Positions 5,687 to 58,753 of a stretch of DNA of 64,000 nt are shown in pieces (the first letter of the stretch is position 1; every line of letters begins with the position of its first letter). A model generated the notes under the pieces. That model was given only the letters and a program-made list of their open reading frames with translations, was not told the origin of the DNA and did not search any database. Made by a program: the position numbers and the translations under genes. Origin of the DNA: Mucilaginibacter gossypii (GTDB lineage: Bacteria > Bacteroidota > Bacteroidia > Sphingobacteriales > Sphingobacteriaceae); assembly GCF_900100945.1 (NCBI RefSeq), contig NZ_FNCG01000005.1, positions 248,001 through 312,000 of the forward strand, given 5' to 3'.

Positions 5687-5695
5687 TTACTTTTG

Positions 5696-5730
5696 TTAGA
5701 TGTTAGATATTAGACGTGAGATTTGAGATC
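5696..5730. repeat. Heptamer array H2 upstream of ftsX
   Basis: Five consecutive 7-nt units fit exactly. The first two are TTAGATG and TTAGATA, and the later ones drift to TGAGATT and TGAGATC. There are no indels in the 35 nt. The array lies in the presumed 5' leader of ftsX. Confidence 0.65.
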
Positions 5731-5858
5731 ACTATCCCCCTCAAGTTAACATCATATTTCTGCGAAAATAAGAAACCCTCCCTAAAGGTAAAAGTTTATT
5801 GCTTATAAATATGTTTAATAACGCTTTAGCTTAACAGATTTAACATTTATTAACAGCA

Positions 5859-6310: not shown

Positions 6311-8191
6311 TTATCTCGCAATCCCCGCCGAGTTAAACTGAAGGTCGTACAATTTCCGGTAGTGGCCGTTTTCAATTTTAAGCAACTCCTGGTGGGTACC
6401 CATTTCCATAATCTCGCCATGGTCAAGTACGATGATCCTGTCGGCGTTTTGAATGGTGGAAAGCCTGTGGGCTATCACTATAGCCGTGCGGCCTTCCATT
6501 AATTTATTGATGGCATTCTGGATCAGGATCTCGGTTTCTGTATCAACAGATGACGTGGCTTCGTCCAAAACCAGGATTGCGGGATTATAAACCAGTGCCC
6601 TGATAAACGAGATTAGTTGCGATTGCCCGGCCGAAAGTGTTGAGCCGCGTTCCATCACATTATAATCGTAGCCACCGGGCAAGCGTTCGATAAAATCATG
6701 CGCGCCAACATCTTTGGCTGCAGCTATGATCTGATCGCGGGTTATAGTAGGATTATTGAGGCTGACATTATTGGCAATGGTATCACTAAATAAAAACACA
6801 TCCTGTATCACAGTTGCTATCTGCGAACGCAGGTAGTTTACATCATAATCATGGATATCATGTCCATCAACCCTTACACAACCTTTACCAATTTCATAAA
6901 AACGGTTCAGGATATTAATGGTTGATGATTTGCCTGCGCCGGTTGCCCCTACCAAAGCCAGGGTTTCGCCGGGTTTAATGTGGAAGCTGATGTTTTTCAG
7001 CACCCAGTTTTCATCATTATAGGCAAACCATACTTTATCAAAGCTAATATCGCCCTGCAGCCTGCCTGTTGTAAGTGTGCCTTTATTTTCGGCCACCTCG
7101 TCGGTATCCAATACTTTAAAAATCCTGTCGGCACCTACCATACCCATTTGCAGGGTATTAAATTTATCGGCCAGCTGGCGGATAGGCCTGAATAACATAT
7201 TCAGCAATACTATAAAGCTGGTGATCAATCCCGGAGTAATACCCTTACCTGATGCAGAGATAGTTAGCATTTGACTATCTGACAGCATTCGTTTACAACC
7301 ATACCAAACCAACAGGCCCATGCAAATGGCAAACAGGATTTCCACTACAGGAAAGAATATCGAATAATACCAGTTTGAGCGGATATTGGCATCGCGGTAC
7401 TTCTCGTTCACGGCTTTAAATTTACGCATCTCCTGGTCTTCACGGGCAAAGATCTGGATCACACTAATCCCCGAGATATGCTCGGCCAAGAAAGTATTGA
7501 GCCGCGCCACCTGCGTACGCACCTCCTGGAATGAGGACTTAATAGCCTCTTTAAACACATAGGTTGAAGCAAACAGGAAGGGCATCGGAATGAGCGTAAT
7601 CAGGGCCAGTTTCCAGTCCTGCCAAAGCATATAGCCTATCACAGCAACCACCAGCAGCATATCGCCCATGATAGAGATCAACCCTTCCGAAAAAATATCG
7701 GCAATAGTTTCCAGGTCGGACACCGTACGGGTAATAAGCATACCGATAGGCGTACGGTCGAAGTATTTTAATCTTAAACTGGTAATGTGGTTAAAAATAT
7801 CGATCCTCAAATCGCGGATCACATATTGGCCCAACGCATTGGTTAAATAAGTTTGGTAGTACTGCGCAATAGTTTGAATGAGAAGCTGTGCTATCATGAG
7901 CTCAACCATAAAAACCAACCCATTATAATCATCGTTCAAAATATTAACATCCAATGTACGTTGGATCAGGATTGGCTGCAGCAAAGCATTGGCTGCTATA
8001 AAAATGGTTAGGAAAGTAGCTATAACAAAGGTTTTATTATACGGCTTAACGTAATGCATTACCCGGCCGAGCAGCTTCCAGTCAAGGGCCTTTCCGGTTA
8101 CGCCCCCAGAAGGGGGGGCTGCTTGCTTGGTTGCTCCCTCATTTGCTGAGGAGGGAGTTTCCTGTTTATTATCTTTTTCTTCTTTAGCCAC
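6311..8191 (-). CDS. ABC exporter, fused permease and ATPase (MsbA-like)
   Basis: This 626-aa half-transporter has a six-helix ABC_membrane domain (about residues 55-340) and an ATPase domain (about 375-610). The ATPase shows Walker A GATGAGKSS, signature LSAGQSQ (an Ala variant of LSGGQ), Walker B ILVLDEATSSVD and H-loop IAHRLST. The family exports lipids, drugs or peptides as dimers. The substrate is not deducible. An N-terminal hydrophilic extension (residues about 10-32) is encoded by a repeat-like hairpin pair at 8101-8160, so this linker was probably gained by repeat insertion. Confidence 0.92.
   Translation of the reverse strand: MAKEEKDNKQETPSSANEGATKQAAPPSGGVTGKALDWKLLGRVMHYVKPYNKTFVIATFLTIFIAANALLQPILIQRTLDVNILNDDYNGLVFMVELMIAQLLIQTIAQYYQTYLTNALGQYVIRDLRIDIFNHITSLRLKYFDRTPIGMLITRTVSDLETIADIFSEGLISIMGDMLLVVAVIGYMLWQDWKLALITLIPMPFLFASTYVFKEAIKSSFQEVRTQVARLNTFLAEHISGISVIQIFAREDQEMRKFKAVNEKYRDANIRSNWYYSIFFPVVEILFAICMGLLVWYGCKRMLSDSQMLTISASGKGITPGLITSFIVLLNMLFRPIRQLADKFNTLQMGMVGADRIFKVLDTDEVAENKGTLTTGRLQGDISFDKVWFAYNDENWVLKNISFHIKPGETLALVGATGAGKSSTINILNRFYEIGKGCVRVDGHDIHDYDVNYLRSQIATVIQDVFLFSDTIANNVSLNNPTITRDQIIAAAKDVGAHDFIERLPGGYDYNVMERGSTLSAGQSQLISFIRALVYNPAILVLDEATSSVDTETEILIQNAINKLMEGRTAIVIAHRLSTIQNADRIIVLDHGEIMEMGTHQELLKIENGHYRKLYDLQFNSAGIAR
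8101..8160. repeat. REP-like hairpins inside the ABC transporter coding sequence
   Basis: The forward strand shows two palindromes, CGCCCCCAGAAGGGGGG and CTCCCTC...GAGGGAG, of the same style as the intergenic REP-like elements at 6232 and 34141. Here they lie in-frame in the 5' part of the exporter gene, encoding a low-complexity Ser/Ala/Pro/Gly linker ahead of the first helix. Confidence 0.55.
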
Positions 8192-8251: not shown

Positions 8252-8276
8252 TTCCCCCTTTAGGGGGTTAGGGGGC
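8252..8276. repeat. Stop-supplying hairpin repeat at the truA 3' end
   Basis: The palindrome CCCCCTTTAGGGGG is followed by TTAGGGGGC. Read on the minus strand it gives the last truA codons and its TAA. A near-identical sequence ends the deacetylase gene at 35282-35303, and a variant ends the TonB-domain gene at 22900-22917. Confidence 0.65.
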
Positions 8277-9086
8277 TAATGGAGCGACCAGTTGGTAAGG
8301 ATATTTAACTTCCGTCAAATACAACCCGCAGGCCGGTACGCTGGTGCCGGCATTGGAGCGGTTTTTACTTTCAATAATTTCACGGATACCTTCCGGTTGC
8401 ATTTCTTCCCGGCCAATCATCATCAAGGTACCCACAATGGCCCGTACCATGTTACGCAAAAACCTGTCGGCAGTTATATGGAAGACAATGCCGTTTTCTG
8501 TTTTCACCCACTCGGCGCGGGTTATTTTACAGTTATTGGTTTTAACCTGGGTGTTTGATTTGCTGAAACAGCTAAAATCAATATACTCCATCATAATAGC
8601 CGCGGCTTGGTTCATCAGATCGATATTGGGCACATCGCGCAGCTGCCATGAATATCCCTGCAAAAAAGGGTCTTTATTAAAGTGAATATGGTATTGATAT
8701 GAGCGCGATGTGGCATCAAAACGGGCATGCGCATCGGCATGTACCGGGACAATGTTTTTTATGGCGATATCAGGAGGGAGCAGAGCGTTGAGGCCCCTCA
8801 CTTTATGTCCATAGTCAATAGTCGATAGACCATAGCTTGAGGATTTACTATCGACCATGGACCATGGACCATGGCCTTCAATATCGAAATGCGCAAAGAA
8901 TTCTTTAGCGTGCACGCCTGTATCTGTACGGCCGCAGCCGGTAGTTTCTATCGGGTGTCGTAAAATTGTGCTTAGTGCCTTGTTCAGCAGTTCCTGTACA
9001 GTTACGGCATTTTGCTGTACCTGCCAGCCATGATAGGCAGTGCCATTGTAGGCCAGTTCAATAAAATAACGCTGATTTGTGCTCAC
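8268..9086 (-). CDS. truA: tRNA pseudouridine(38-40) synthase with in-frame repeat insertion
   Basis: This 272-aa enzyme isomerises U38-U40 in tRNA anticodon arms. The catalytic motif CGRTDTGVHA carries nucleophile Asp55. LNALLPPDIAI and FLRNMVRAIVGTLM are further family motifs. Between FAHFD (residues 64-68) and LNALLPP (99-105) there are about 30 residues where relatives have roughly a dozen. Residues 73-95 are encoded by a 70-nt array of heptamers (8803-8872), so the enzyme seems to carry a repeat-derived loop. The last codons and stop also come from a repeat. All active-site motifs are intact, so the enzyme is probably functional. Confidence 0.95.
   Translation of the reverse strand: MSTNQRYFIELAYNGTAYHGWQVQQNAVTVQELLNKALSTILRHPIETTGCGRTDTGVHAKEFFAHFDIEGHGPWSMVDSKSSSYGLSTIDYGHKVRGLNALLPPDIAIKNIVPVHADAHARFDATSRSYQYHIHFNKDPFLQGYSWQLRDVPNIDLMNQAAAIMMEYIDFSCFSKSNTQVKTNNCKITRAEWVKTENGIVFHITADRFLRNMVRAIVGTLMMIGREEMQPEGIREIIESKNRSNAGTSVPACGLYLTEVKYPYQLVAPLAP
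8803..8872. repeat. Heptamer array H3 inside truA
   Basis: Ten 7-nt units without indels: CATAGTC-like units on the left, a switch at 8838-8851, then GGACCAT-like units on the right. The right half is roughly the reverse complement of the left half, so the array is both tandem and palindromic. The open reading frame is kept through all 70 nt. Confidence 0.8.
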
Positions 9087-12635: not shown

Positions 12636-12695
12636 TTATATATAAGCCCGCCTTTTCTGGTCATAAGCAACCTTCAACCCATCCATAAACTGTAT

Positions 12696-12730
12696 GAGCT
12701 TTCGGCTTTGAGCATTCAGCTTTCAGCCTA
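12696..12730. repeat. Heptamer array H5 at the lipoprotein stop
   Basis: Five exact 7-nt units, such as CAGCTTT and CGGCTTT, end 2 nt before the stop codon of the minus-strand gene at 12733. The unit is the same word (TTTCAGC/GCTTTCA) as in H1, H6 and H7. Confidence 0.7.
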
Positions 12731-12732
12731 CA

Positions 12733-13053
12733 TTAACGGCTAAATTCAACAATGTCCGAATCAGGATAACAAAGCGTTAGCTTACTGTCGGTAAGTTCCT
12801 TAATAAAAAACTTGGTATAAGGCCTGCTCCCCTGGTATGAGGTATAAATGGTATCATTTTTTACAAAATAATCCTCTTTGCTGGCCTGCCCGTCGTCCAT
12901 AATAAAATCTTTATCCGTTATCGAAAGCTTGGTAGCACCATCTTTTGATTTCCAGTTACCTTCCAGCTTTTTATTGGCGGCCGGAGGCTGAGAACAAGCG
13001 TATATCAATAACATGCCTGCAACTGCAGCAAATATGGGAGCAAACTTTTTCAT
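12733..13053 (-). CDS. Small predicted lipoprotein
   Basis: This 106-aa protein has a type II signal peptide (MKKFAPIFAAVAGMLLIYAC, Cys20 as the lipidation site) and a roughly 80-residue domain beginning LEGNWKSKDGATKLSI. That start resembles small lipocalin-like (LEGNW) extracytoplasmic domains of Bacteroidota. No specific function is recognised. It is followed 47 nt downstream by no partner gene; the upstream neighbour on the same strand is the 103-aa secreted protein. Confidence 0.7.
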   Translation of the reverse strand: MKKFAPIFAAVAGMLLIYACSQPPAANKKLEGNWKSKDGATKLSITDKDFIMDDGQASKEDYFVKNDTIYTSYQGSRPYTKFFIKELTDSKLTLCYPDSDIVEFSR

Positions 13054-46508: not shown

Positions 46509-46543
46509 TTAAAGCTGAAAGCAAAATGCGCAAAGCTAAAAGC
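46509..46543. repeat. Heptamer array H6 immediately after the SusD stop
   Basis: Five exact 7-nt units ending in AAAGC or a near variant, for example TTAAAGC and TGAAAGC, start at the base after the stop codon. The word GCTGAAA is the complement of TTTCAGC in H1, H5 and H7. Confidence 0.7.
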
Positions 46544-46695
46544 TAATAAACTGGTGTTCAGTTGGTAACAGGAAAATGCAAAATTATAAATAACCTGACA
46601 ACTTATCGGGAAAGCATACTTCCCGGTAAGTTTATTATCTTGCCTTAACATCCCTGCTTCTGAAAAGCTGATTATAAACATTTTTAAACCCATTT

Positions 46696-55849: not shown

Positions 55850-55919
55850 GGTAAAAGGCGAAAGGATAAAGGCGAAAGGTTTAGGCAGAAAATCTACCTT
55901 TTACCTTTCAGCTTTAACC
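55850..55919. repeat. Heptamer array H7, palindromic, ten units
   Basis: Ten exact 7-nt units: GGCGAAA-type on the left (GGTAAAA and GGCGAAA first) and TTTTACC-type on the right. The right half reverse-complements the left half, so the transcript could fold into a long imperfect hairpin. It lies between the LMW-PTP start (55841) and the nuclease stop (55927), 7 nt from the latter. Confidence 0.8.
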
Positions 55920-55926
55920 TCAAGAA

Positions 55927-56721
55927 CTATCCAAATATCTGGTTCAGCAAACCGGCCAAACGTACGCCGGCTTTAACCATTTGCTGGTTAAGGGTTGCTA
56001 TATGGCTAAAGTTGTATTTGTAACCAAGTTTATCACCGGTTTTAGTTTCGGCGTATAGCTTATCAGCCATCTGGTTGCTTTCGTATATCCACTGGCTCAT
56101 TGGCGCTTTTTGTAACTCTGTGCGTTGAGCGGCTGTGGTGTGGTTTATCATCGCGGTGTACTCGGTGTAGCTTAACTGCTGAAGGTCAATCAGCTCGCTG
56201 TCCCAAACCGAATGCAGGTTGCTCTCTTTACCAAACCATTGTACCTTTACATCGTTACCGCCCTTATCACTCAGGTGACCAGTGTGCAGCGGTTGGTGCA
56301 CATCCTCAACAATATGGATCAGCATGCGCAGGTAAAGCAACTTGTTGGTTTTGGTAGTAGTTTTCTTTTTAAGTTCGGCCACCAGGAAATTCATTTTGGT
56401 ATAGGCATCGGTAATCGTGTCGGCCTTTAAATAAGCCTGCAGGTCCGGGTAGCTGTAAGCTTTTTCCAGGTTGATAAAATGCCAGTTATACAGGTAATTG
56501 TAGGCAGGGTCTGATTTAATAAAATCGGCCCAGTTGCTGGTAATGGCAATCGACTCATTACCTAAAATGGCTTGAATAGCTTTACGGGCTTTGGCGGTTA
56601 GGTAGCTATCCGCAACCTGGCCGCAAATGCGGTGCCCATTAGTACCCCAGGCCATGCTTTGCAGGGGGATATAAAATATCGCCACCAGCAGTAAAAGTTT
56701 TTTTAAGGTTTGTGTTTTCAT
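55927..56721 (-). CDS. Secreted S1/P1-family nuclease
   Basis: This 264-aa zinc-dependent nuclease cuts single-stranded DNA and RNA and their 3'-phosphates. The signal peptide is cleaved just before the zinc-ligand Trp (SMAWGTNGHRICGQVADSYL). HIVEDVHQPLHTGH and GGNDVKVQWFG carry further zinc ligands, with NLHSVWDSELI downstream. The start codon overlaps the stop of the upstream lipoprotein gene by one base (TAATG), so the two are translationally coupled. Confidence 0.92.
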   Translation of the reverse strand: MKTQTLKKLLLLVAIFYIPLQSMAWGTNGHRICGQVADSYLTAKARKAIQAILGNESIAITSNWADFIKSDPAYNYLYNWHFINLEKAYSYPDLQAYLKADTITDAYTKMNFLVAELKKKTTTKTNKLLYLRMLIHIVEDVHQPLHTGHLSDKGGNDVKVQWFGKESNLHSVWDSELIDLQQLSYTEYTAMINHTTAAQRTELQKAPMSQWIYESNQMADKLYAETKTGDKLGYKYNFSHIATLNQQMVKAGVRLAGLLNQIFG

Positions 56722-57302
56722 TACAATGGTTTTGGAATGCAGCTTGTTCTTTTTATTAAATGCGCGTTAATAGGTATTACGTTGGATGTACTTACAAACC
56801 GGATCAGGGAGTCGCTTTGCTTATGAACCTTAAAATATTCTTCATAATCGCCAAATCTGAAACAACCCTGCTCATTTTTATACGAGCCATCAGCATTGCA
56901 AAACTGCCCTTTAATGTGGAGTGTGTCCCGCCGTTGCGAATAAGTTCCCCGTATATATTCATCCCAATGGCCTTTGCTCATACACGTATCAGCCCCGTAA
57001 TTAACCTTGCTAACGGTACTGATCTTCAAAAGAAATGAATCGCAGCTGAACTTAATATTGTATAGCGAATATGTTACCAGGCTTTTTTGCGCAGGTACCG
57101 AGTCTTGTTTCCATTCGCCCTGCAAATAACCCTCGCCGGGCGTTTGTTTATCCGGGTTCATGGTACAGGAGGTTATTATGAGGCAAAAGGCGAAAGGTAA
57201 AAGGCGAAAGGCTTTTTTTAAGCTAAAAGCCGAAAGCGGAAAGCCCAAAGCGAAAGGCTTAAAGCAGAAAGATAAAAAGTGAAAGCTATAGCGTTTTTGC
57301 AT
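56721..57302 (-). CDS. Predicted lipoprotein with a heptamer-encoded signal peptide
   Basis: This 193-aa protein has an unusually long signal peptide ending in the lipobox CLIITSC (about residue 46) and a domain of roughly 145 residues of unknown fold, including QGEWKQDSVPAQKSLVTY. The N-terminal 37 or so residues are encoded by a 112-nt, 16-unit heptamer array (57182-57293). The repeating frame (7 nt, three phases) gives a Phe/Ser/Leu/Ala/Lys-rich sequence that looks like a signal peptide. The start at 57302 avoids overlapping fumC; a later start within the array is possible. Coupled to the S1/P1 nuclease. Confidence 0.65.
   Translation of the reverse strand: MQKRYSFHFLSFCFKPFALGFPLSAFSLKKAFRLLPFAFCLIITSCTMNPDKQTPGEGYLQGEWKQDSVPAQKSLVTYSLYNIKFSCDSFLLKISTVSKVNYGADTCMSKGHWDEYIRGTYSQRRDTLHIKGQFCNADGSYKNEQGCFRFGDYEEYFKVHKQSDSLIRFVSTSNVIPINAHLIKRTSCIPKPL
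57182..57293. repeat. Heptamer array H8, 16 units
   Basis: Sixteen exact 7-nt units without indels. The left part has GGCGAAA-type units, then a switch near 57210-57223, then AAAGC-type units such as CGAAAGC and GGAAAGC. This is the longest array in the window. It covers the N-terminus of the lipoprotein gene and the region downstream of fumC. Confidence 0.85.
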
Positions 57303-57318
57303 AAGCGAAAAATAAAAA

Positions 57319-57355
57319 GGCCCCTCTCCATCCGGAGAGGGGTTTGGGGTGAGGC
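57319..57355. repeat. GGAGAGGGG hairpin repeat against the fumC stop
   Basis: CCCCTCTCC at 57321-57329 pairs exactly with 57334-57342, followed by TTTGGGGTGAGG, ending at the base next to the fumC stop codon. A terminator function is likely. Confidence 0.65.
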
Positions 57356-58753
57356 TTATTTCAAACTGCCTATCATATTTTCGGGGCGTACCCACTCGTC
57401 AAACTGTTCGTTGGTTAGTAAGCCTAAACCAATAGCAGCTTCGCGCAGTGAGCTGCCGTTTTTAAGGGCTGTTTTAGCAATTTTTGCCGCGTTTTCATAG
57501 CCGATATGCGGGTTAAGCGCAGTTACCAGCATTAATGAGTTTTCGAGGTGTTTTTTGATGCCATCATAATTAGGTTCAATGCCTACAGCGCAATGATCAT
57601 TGAACGACACGCAGGCATCACCAATTAACCTTGCCGATTGCAGGAAGTTTGCCGCCATAACCGGTTTAAATACATTCAGCTCGTAATGGCCGTTTGAGCC
57701 GCCGATGGAAATAGCCACATCATTACCCATAACCTGTGCAGCCACCATGGTAACCGCTTCGTTTTGGGTTGGATTAACTTTACCCGGCATAATTGATGAG
57801 CCCGGCTCGTTATCGGGGATATGGATCTCGCCAATACCCGAACGCGGACCAGAAGCCAGCATCCTGATATCGTTAGCAATTTTCATTAATGAAACCGCAA
57901 TTTGTTTCAGCGCGCCATGACTTTCGACAATGGCATCGTGAGCGGCAAGAGCTTCAAATTTATTTTCGGCTGTGATGAACGGAAAGCCGGTAAACTGGGC
58001 AATGTACTCAGCAACTTTTACATCATAACCTTTAGGCGTGTTGATCCCTGTACCTACAGCCGTACCACCAAGGGCCAGTTCAGAAAGGTGATCAAGCGTA
58101 TTACGCAATGCTTTTAAGCCGTGGTTCAACTGTGAAACATAACCTGAAAACTCCTGGCCTAAGGTAAGCGGGGTAGCATCCATCAAATGGGTACGACCGA
58201 TTTTTACTACGGATTTGAAAGCCTCAACCTTAGCCTGCAAGGTATCGCGCAGTTTTTCGATACCGGGAATGGTTACATCAATCAGGATCTTGTATGCCGC
58301 AATGTGCATAGCTGTTGGGTAAGTATCGTTTGATGATTGTGATTTGTTCACGTCATCATTAGGGTGAATAAAGGTTTTGCCTTCGCCCAGTTTATTGCCT
58401 TGTAATACATGTGCACGGTTAGCCACAACCTCGTTCACGTTCATGTTTGATTGCGTGCCCGAGCCTGTTTGCCAAATCACCAGCGGAAACTCCGAAGCCA
58501 GTTCGCCGGCCAGGATCTCATCGCACACCTGTGCAATCAGGTCGCGTTTTTCGGCAGGCAATACACCTAAATCGGTATTGGTATAAGCGGCTGCTTTTTT
58601 TAGATATGCAAAAGCGTCGATAATCTCCTTTGGCATTGATGCCTCCGGACCAATTTTAAAATTGTTGCGTGAGCGTTCGGTTTGCGCTCCCCAGTATTTG
58701 TCGGCAGGTACCTGTACCTCGCCCATGGTATCGTGTTCGGTTCTGAAACTCAT
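57356..58753 (-). CDS. fumC: Class II fumarate hydratase
   Basis: This 465-aa TCA-cycle enzyme interconverts fumarate and malate. It has [19 protein letters not shown], the [12 protein letters not shown] block, [14 protein letters not shown] and the superfamily signature [16 protein letters not shown] with the catalytic Ser loop. Length is standard and it is iron-independent. It stands alone on the minus strand, followed by the repeat-rich gap and the lipoprotein gene. Confidence 0.97.

Follow-up and report, generated by a model that had tools for sequence, protein, structure and literature searches.

How does a core tRNA enzyme come to carry seven-base tandem repeats within its reading frame, and where do such repeats come from? 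The gene that raises this question, truA, lies on the minus strand at positions 8268–9086 of the window (the whole 64,000-nt stretch of Mucilaginibacter gossypii DNA analyzed here) and encodes tRNA pseudouridine(38-40) synthase. Family score, fold and motif all identify it as TruA: the product scored 168 bits against TIGR00071 (NCBIfam), above the cut-off of 142.85; an AlphaFold2 model built from 44 sequences (mean pLDDT 87.1) matched E. coli TruA (1dj0_A) with Z 30.1 and an rmsd of 2.1 over 250 aligned positions; and R52, T53 and D54 of the GRTD motif were invariant in all 44 aligned sequences. The TAA stop codon (8268–8270) sits inside a C/G-rich palindromic repeat (CCCCCTTTAGGGGG TTAGGGGGC) at 8254–8276, which has a decayed form at the same place in a close relative, G116. 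The adjoining ABC transporter gene (6311–8191) carries a degenerate copy of this palindrome at 8103–8116, among its N-terminal codons (AAPPSGG).

A preliminary description of the locus had placed ten consecutive heptamers between the FAHFD and LNALLPP blocks of the protein and assigned them to residues of about 73–95. Period-7 DNA is present there, arranged as an inverted pair with a spacer and not as ten units in a row, and its coordinates correspond to residues of about 70–94. Tandem Repeats Finder reported two separate period-7 arrays, at 8807–8835 and 8853–8874. The first is the + arm (8807–8835, plus strand) of about four GTCNATR heptamers, reading GTCCATA, GTCAATA, GTCGATA and GACCATA from 8807, with the general form GTC(C/G/A)AT(A/G). 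A spacer at 8836–8846 separates it from the − arm (8847–8877, minus strand) of about four inverted heptamers (ATSGACC), in which units of type GACCATG reach 8877; GCTTGAG and GATTTAC belong to the spacer and are not array units. Each array is the other's reverse complement, out of register; the paired arms of 22 nt (8807–8828 and 8848–8869) are 86% complementary and 19 nt apart, and the DNA fold of the stretch gave z = −2.45, equaled by 3 of 200 shuffles. With a heptamer score of 28.5, the insert is beyond chance: 1445 control segments taken from the remaining parts of the 142 genus truA genes peaked at 15, and their 99th percentile was 11.5.

Copies of this element are dispersed through the genome of the window (G000; 7.1 Mb in 45 contigs). 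A search with the truA element found 12 places, and GTYSATR triplets gave 24 and 25 matches on the two strands. Other than truA, the triplet places comprised 19 rows, 17 of them distinct; one lay inside an ORF (murF, L264), and the remainder lay between ORFs or at their edges (ORFs of 120 or more residues). Scanning 852 kb of G000 with a home-made gene caller (coding fraction 0.85) yielded 15 period-7 arrays, five of them in genes (three in ispG, one each in murF and truA), and 0, 0, 2, 5, 0, 0, 0, 1, 0, and 2 arrays of period 4, 5, 6, 8, 9, 10, 11, 12, 13, and 14, respectively. By family, the same 852 kb held 4 of 33 GTYSATR arrays inside genes (two in truA, one in murF, one in ispG), 2 of 19 AAAGGYR arrays (both in ispG) and 4 of 19 palindromes, one mismatch being allowed. 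GTYSATR elements numbered 19 there, three of them in genes, and every two-arm element, truA included, had the + arm first and the − arm last (12 of 12). Across the genus, GTCSATR triplets were found in 102 of 149 genomes, GTTSATR triplets in 119 and CCCCCTTCAGGGGG in 127, and reversed-pattern controls gave few matches (27 at most over all genus genomes, by our count). The truA element is one of these dispersed seven-base tandem units, and several heptamer families and C/G-rich palindromes occur across the intergenic DNA of these bacteria.

Other members of this repeat population were encountered along the way. Within the window, gaps at 5692–5731, 12693–12733, 46511–46546 and 55854–55920 contain heptamer arrays of other families (TTAGATN/TGAGATN, AGCTTTC, AAAGCTN, and an AAAGGCG hairpin). 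Arrays at 57177–57288 cross the N-terminal part of a minus-strand ORF (56721–57395) that has no Pfam match, and encode a hydrophobic stretch before LIITSC, which we take to be a possible lipobox. A presumably TrpG/PabA-like gene of G000 (C36:194175–194793) has first codons (MKENTNTTESTPFRGRGG) derived from a C/G-rich palindrome, and at L340 (741–1944) an ORF that we take to be DUF559-like reads via such a palindrome directly into what is presumably HisF-like sequence.

The reading frame is kept through the truA insert, as the preliminary description had stated. An A at the R of an in-frame T-R-G would create a stop, and all 39 such units had G; in other phases R was G in 124 and A in 84, and in the tandem units of G000 at large G in 22 and A in 18. 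Stop codons are avoided in the coding heptamers, and the frame stays open. In the structure model the pLDDT fell below 50 at residues 78–89, in the connection between strand 58–69 and helix 91–101, which by alignment is shorter in E. coli TruA 1dj0_A; the insert is accordingly predicted to be partly disordered. That such arrays occupy coding DNA as well as gaps was borne out, the truA insert having the sequence of the dispersed elements, their fixed +/− arm order and an open frame.

All 149 genus genomes gave a TruA match, and the loop could be read in 142; of the seven without a usable loop, one was cut by a contig end and six gave weak or partial matches. The notion that the insert is unique to this species was rejected, since G116, whose TruA is 92% identical to that of G000, has nearly the same insert and long loops occur across the genus; among the matches listed, the closest named TruA was that of M. 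endophyticus (88%). The short loop that had been attributed to other TruA proteins holds for 11 typical genes picked from other genera (16–22 residues) but not for much of the genus, where loops ranged from 15 to 125 residues with no stop in any of the 142. Loops were classed as H (GTYSATR heptamer score of 16 or more), P (a hand-made C/G-rich palindrome pattern, composed after inspection of the first 30 loops) or N (neither), giving 70 H, 29 P (of non-H), and 43 N. A family-blind test for period 7 exceeded the control 99th percentile in 86 of the 142 loops (68 H, 14 N, and 4 P), and other periods did so in 0–6 loops each, except for 14, a multiple of 7, with 74. Assignment to N is no proof of a bare loop, as 14 of the 43 show period 7, and at least one repeat signature is present in 113 of 142 loops (70 + 29 + 14). 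A single conserved insert written in different codons was not seen in the relatives, which often hold another repeat family at this site. Of the 70 heptamer loops, 29 contain both orientations (+− in 26, ++− in two, +−−−− in one), always in the fixed +/− order, and 41 have one arm only (− alone in 25, + alone in 16).

On a TruA tree made by a quick method with the loop excluded (142 genus and six outgroup rows), the three classes need 41 changes, a count that rests on weak topology, with 59 of 145 inner branches below 80 and two outgroup rows inside the genus. On its starred branches 11 label changes are unavoidable for H and nine for P, H and P alone require at least 12 swaps (99 rows of this weakly supported tree), and of the ten loops in the starred group to which the window belongs, six are H and four are P. 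These class changes do not count insertions, because a single loop type is inherited throughout certain clades and some of the N loops have a decayed appearance. Genome copy number was considered as a predictor of loop class and rejected, the raw link being lost after relatedness control (3.2 vs. 2.4 of 11 pairs for heptamers; 3.2 vs. 0.9 of nine for palindromes). The match of GTC/GTT type between loop and genome ran in the expected direction (2.5 vs. 0.1 of five pairs), with few pairs and no significance. With 137 GTCSATR matches and a TruA loop of 125 residues, G040 ranks first in both respects, but loop length showed no correlation with copy number across the heptamer class (70 loops, rho 0.10).

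Outside the genus, 20 TruA genes of the same family were picked (nine long, 11 typical), a selection that gives no frequency. Period 7 exceeded the control 99th percentile in eight of the nine long loops and in none of the 11 typical ones; the units differ by eye (e.g., GTCAGCN or CACAACC), and in one long loop, L356, period 8 scored above period 7. Two further core enzymes of the genus, MurF and IspG, show swapping similar to that of TruA; both were read in the best 30 of the 149 genomes, with families other than GTYSATR named by eye. GTYSATR scores of 23 or more were found in 13 of 30 murF genes, by eye in a single C-terminal loop that elsewhere holds AAAAGTC-like strings, and the palindrome pattern was found in eight of 30, by eye in a different loop where others have GGAAGTC-like strings. 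In IspG, loop 1 was readable in 24 and loop 2 in 26 of the 30, and period 7 exceeded a control inflated by loop 2 in nine of 24 copies of loop 1. The IspG proteins of G000 and G116 are 95% identical, yet in the loop that follows ELVR the former has an AAAGGCG hairpin and the latter an AAAGCRG one; in others of the best 30 genomes this loop carries another palindrome (LTPNPSPGERG), units resembling AAAAGTC, or mixtures. A heptamer hairpin is also carried by AroA of G040, a single case, and a palindrome by the TIGR02757 protein of G000.

Comparison of G000 with G116 bears on how recently the elements moved. Among 25 elements of G000, 17 were comparable, of which 15 were present in G116 and two were scored absent; in reverse, 18 of 26 G116 elements were comparable, with 16 present and two absent. 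No clean empty site was found in either direction: the sites of the two G000 elements scored absent are occupied, one by a different heptamer family and one by a decayed palindrome, and the two G116 elements absent from G000 correspond to target gaps that are larger there (1409 and 2708 nt). Fifteen of 17 comparable elements in common argue against recent activity, and this comparison gave no support for recent mobility. The intergenic site C36:174544 holds AAAGGYR in G000 and a GGAAGTC hairpin in G116. Target-site duplications were also sought, and none rose above shuffles: direct repeats of at least 5 nt were found at the ends of none of 12 two-arm elements, whose ends are fuzzy, against a shuffled mean of 1.09. 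At C36:109198–109317, G000 has a palindrome pair, and the equivalent place in G116 is taken up by about 2.3 kb that includes runs of GCAGTTT heptamers; the reverse-transcriptase-like ORF there presumably resembles that of a group II intron.

Taken together, these results make it probable, in our judgment, that small dispersed hairpin repeats colonize permissive loops of core enzymes and then replace one another there. Loops and dispersed elements share sequence and arm order, the loops contain both orientations in an open frame, and one loop accommodates several families. The truA insert would then be one copy of a small dispersed repeat with variable GTYSATR heptamer arms, built as + arm, spacer and − arm, and drawn from the dispersed pool. 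A copy within a gene may persist if it leaves the frame open and its peptide lies in a flexible loop; permissive loops would then be what selection leaves, and a few core-enzyme loops (TruA, MurF, IspG, and in a single case AroA) could serve as landing pads. Once it holds a hairpin repeat, such a pad would keep turning over, its resident being inherited, decaying or being replaced by another family, possibly when the hairpin breaks or is copied wrongly and an ectopic repeat provides the template.

Tolerance, and not selection, seems to account for the inserts, and we regard it as unlikely that they are retained for a function, with the mRNA hairpin or the encoded peptide controlling the enzyme or contributing to its work. 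Reuse of one loop time and again across the genus would fit such a function, as would the folding of palindrome loops (median z −4.9) and of heptamer loops at least 28 residues long (−2.3), both better than shuffles (control −0.5; all z values against mononucleotide shuffles). Short heptamer loops, however, barely exceed the control (−0.9), and this weak folding, with the second arm missing in 41 of 70 heptamer loops, is why an RNA-hairpin function is not favored; loops of 15–22 residues without any signature also exist, and the inserts are of unrelated sequence, in both orientations, with no common peptide. Growth of the loop in place, by local duplication of heptamers without dispersed donors, seems to us equally improbable. 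Heptamers have been proposed by others to be slippage-prone (PMC4679880, as far as its available text goes), one arm differs by 14 nt between G000 and G116, and arrays of many identical units do occur, such as 162 nt of GTCCATA units between ORFs in G040 (L289, 1496–1658), with no mismatch to the family pattern. Slippage nevertheless leaves unexplained the family sequence common to the dispersed elements, the inverted second arm of 29 of 70 loops, and the palindrome loops.

That the elements are ordinary REPs moved by RAYT (Y1) transposases is less probable still, and we give it very little credence. REPs are described in the available text of PMC3733652 as small palindromes with an intergenic bias and in-frame gene copies, and Y1_Tnp genes were present in five of the six genomes examined. 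None of the 30 Y1_Tnp loci fetched from the six genomes (98 kb), however, had a heptamer array, and one held the C/G-rich palindrome; G018 has 44 overlapping GTCSATR matches, yet no Y1_Tnp match; and GTAG or CGTC, on either strand, lay within 6 nt of an end in just two of 12 two-arm heptamer elements. RAYT mobilization of the heptamers was therefore set aside, the flanks of the Y1_Tnp loci giving it no support. At L406, L407 and L408, Y1 transposase genes are flanked by repeats of their own (such as TTGACCCGTAGGGTCTACC), unlike the heptamer elements.

Colonization of permissive loops followed by replacement leaves room for a narrower and more doubtful proposal. Unrelated repeats at one site in close relatives (in ispG and at C36:174544) suggest replacement at an existing hairpin, not repeated insertion into empty loops, and we tentatively raise the possibility that hairpin repeats target places where a hairpin repeat is already present, unrelated families exchanging in place, in intergenic DNA as much as in core enzymes, without a dedicated transposase. 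If this were true, loop shuffling would be a standing process that remodels the surface loops of three core enzymes (TruA, MurF and IspG) on a species-level time scale. Selfish DNA in frame, a known curiosity, is here available as more than 100 natural replicates at one site in one genus, which makes it testable how small repeats move without a known transposase, why unrelated families share one spot, and how far a flexible loop may expand in a core enzyme. A practical warning also follows, in that odd protein loops in these bacteria may be repeat-derived.

A literature search that covered few subscription papers returned no description of heptamer hairpins within genes of Mucilaginibacter or Pedobacter, and comparison with related systems relies on their published descriptions, as far as these were available. 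Dispersed heptamer repeats are described in Nostoc and Xanthomonas (PMC4692102) and in Beggiatoaceae, Cyanobacteria and five Bacteroidetes (TAACTGA; PMC4679880); like those reported here they are seven-base units, dispersed and mostly intergenic, but they are described as direct repeats under-represented in genes, whereas ours have inverted arms and also occur in frame within core enzymes. Nematomorpha mitochondria likewise have inverted repeats inside protein genes, these being perfect coding palindromes of up to 284 bp (PMC6649704). Intragenic GTAG/CGTC REPs are documented in several phyla, including truB genes and truA of Stenotrophomonas maltophilia, with different REPs at about the same recB site in two Xanthomonas species (PMC3733652); the repeats within ORFs, a truA among them, are alike, and the Mucilaginibacter elements differ in their heptamer arms, the lack of a constant end tag (2 of 12) and the lack of a RAYT link for the heptamers. 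Rickettsia palindromic elements (RPE; Ogata et al.) occur in frame in conserved protein genes as well as between genes, and are described as tolerated, the gmk case having been tested by others (PMC2229807). Small palindromic repeats in both settings are common to the two systems; compared by description, what distinguishes these Bacteroidota elements from RPE and intragenic REPs is the heptamer arms and the several unrelated families that exchange at a single loop.
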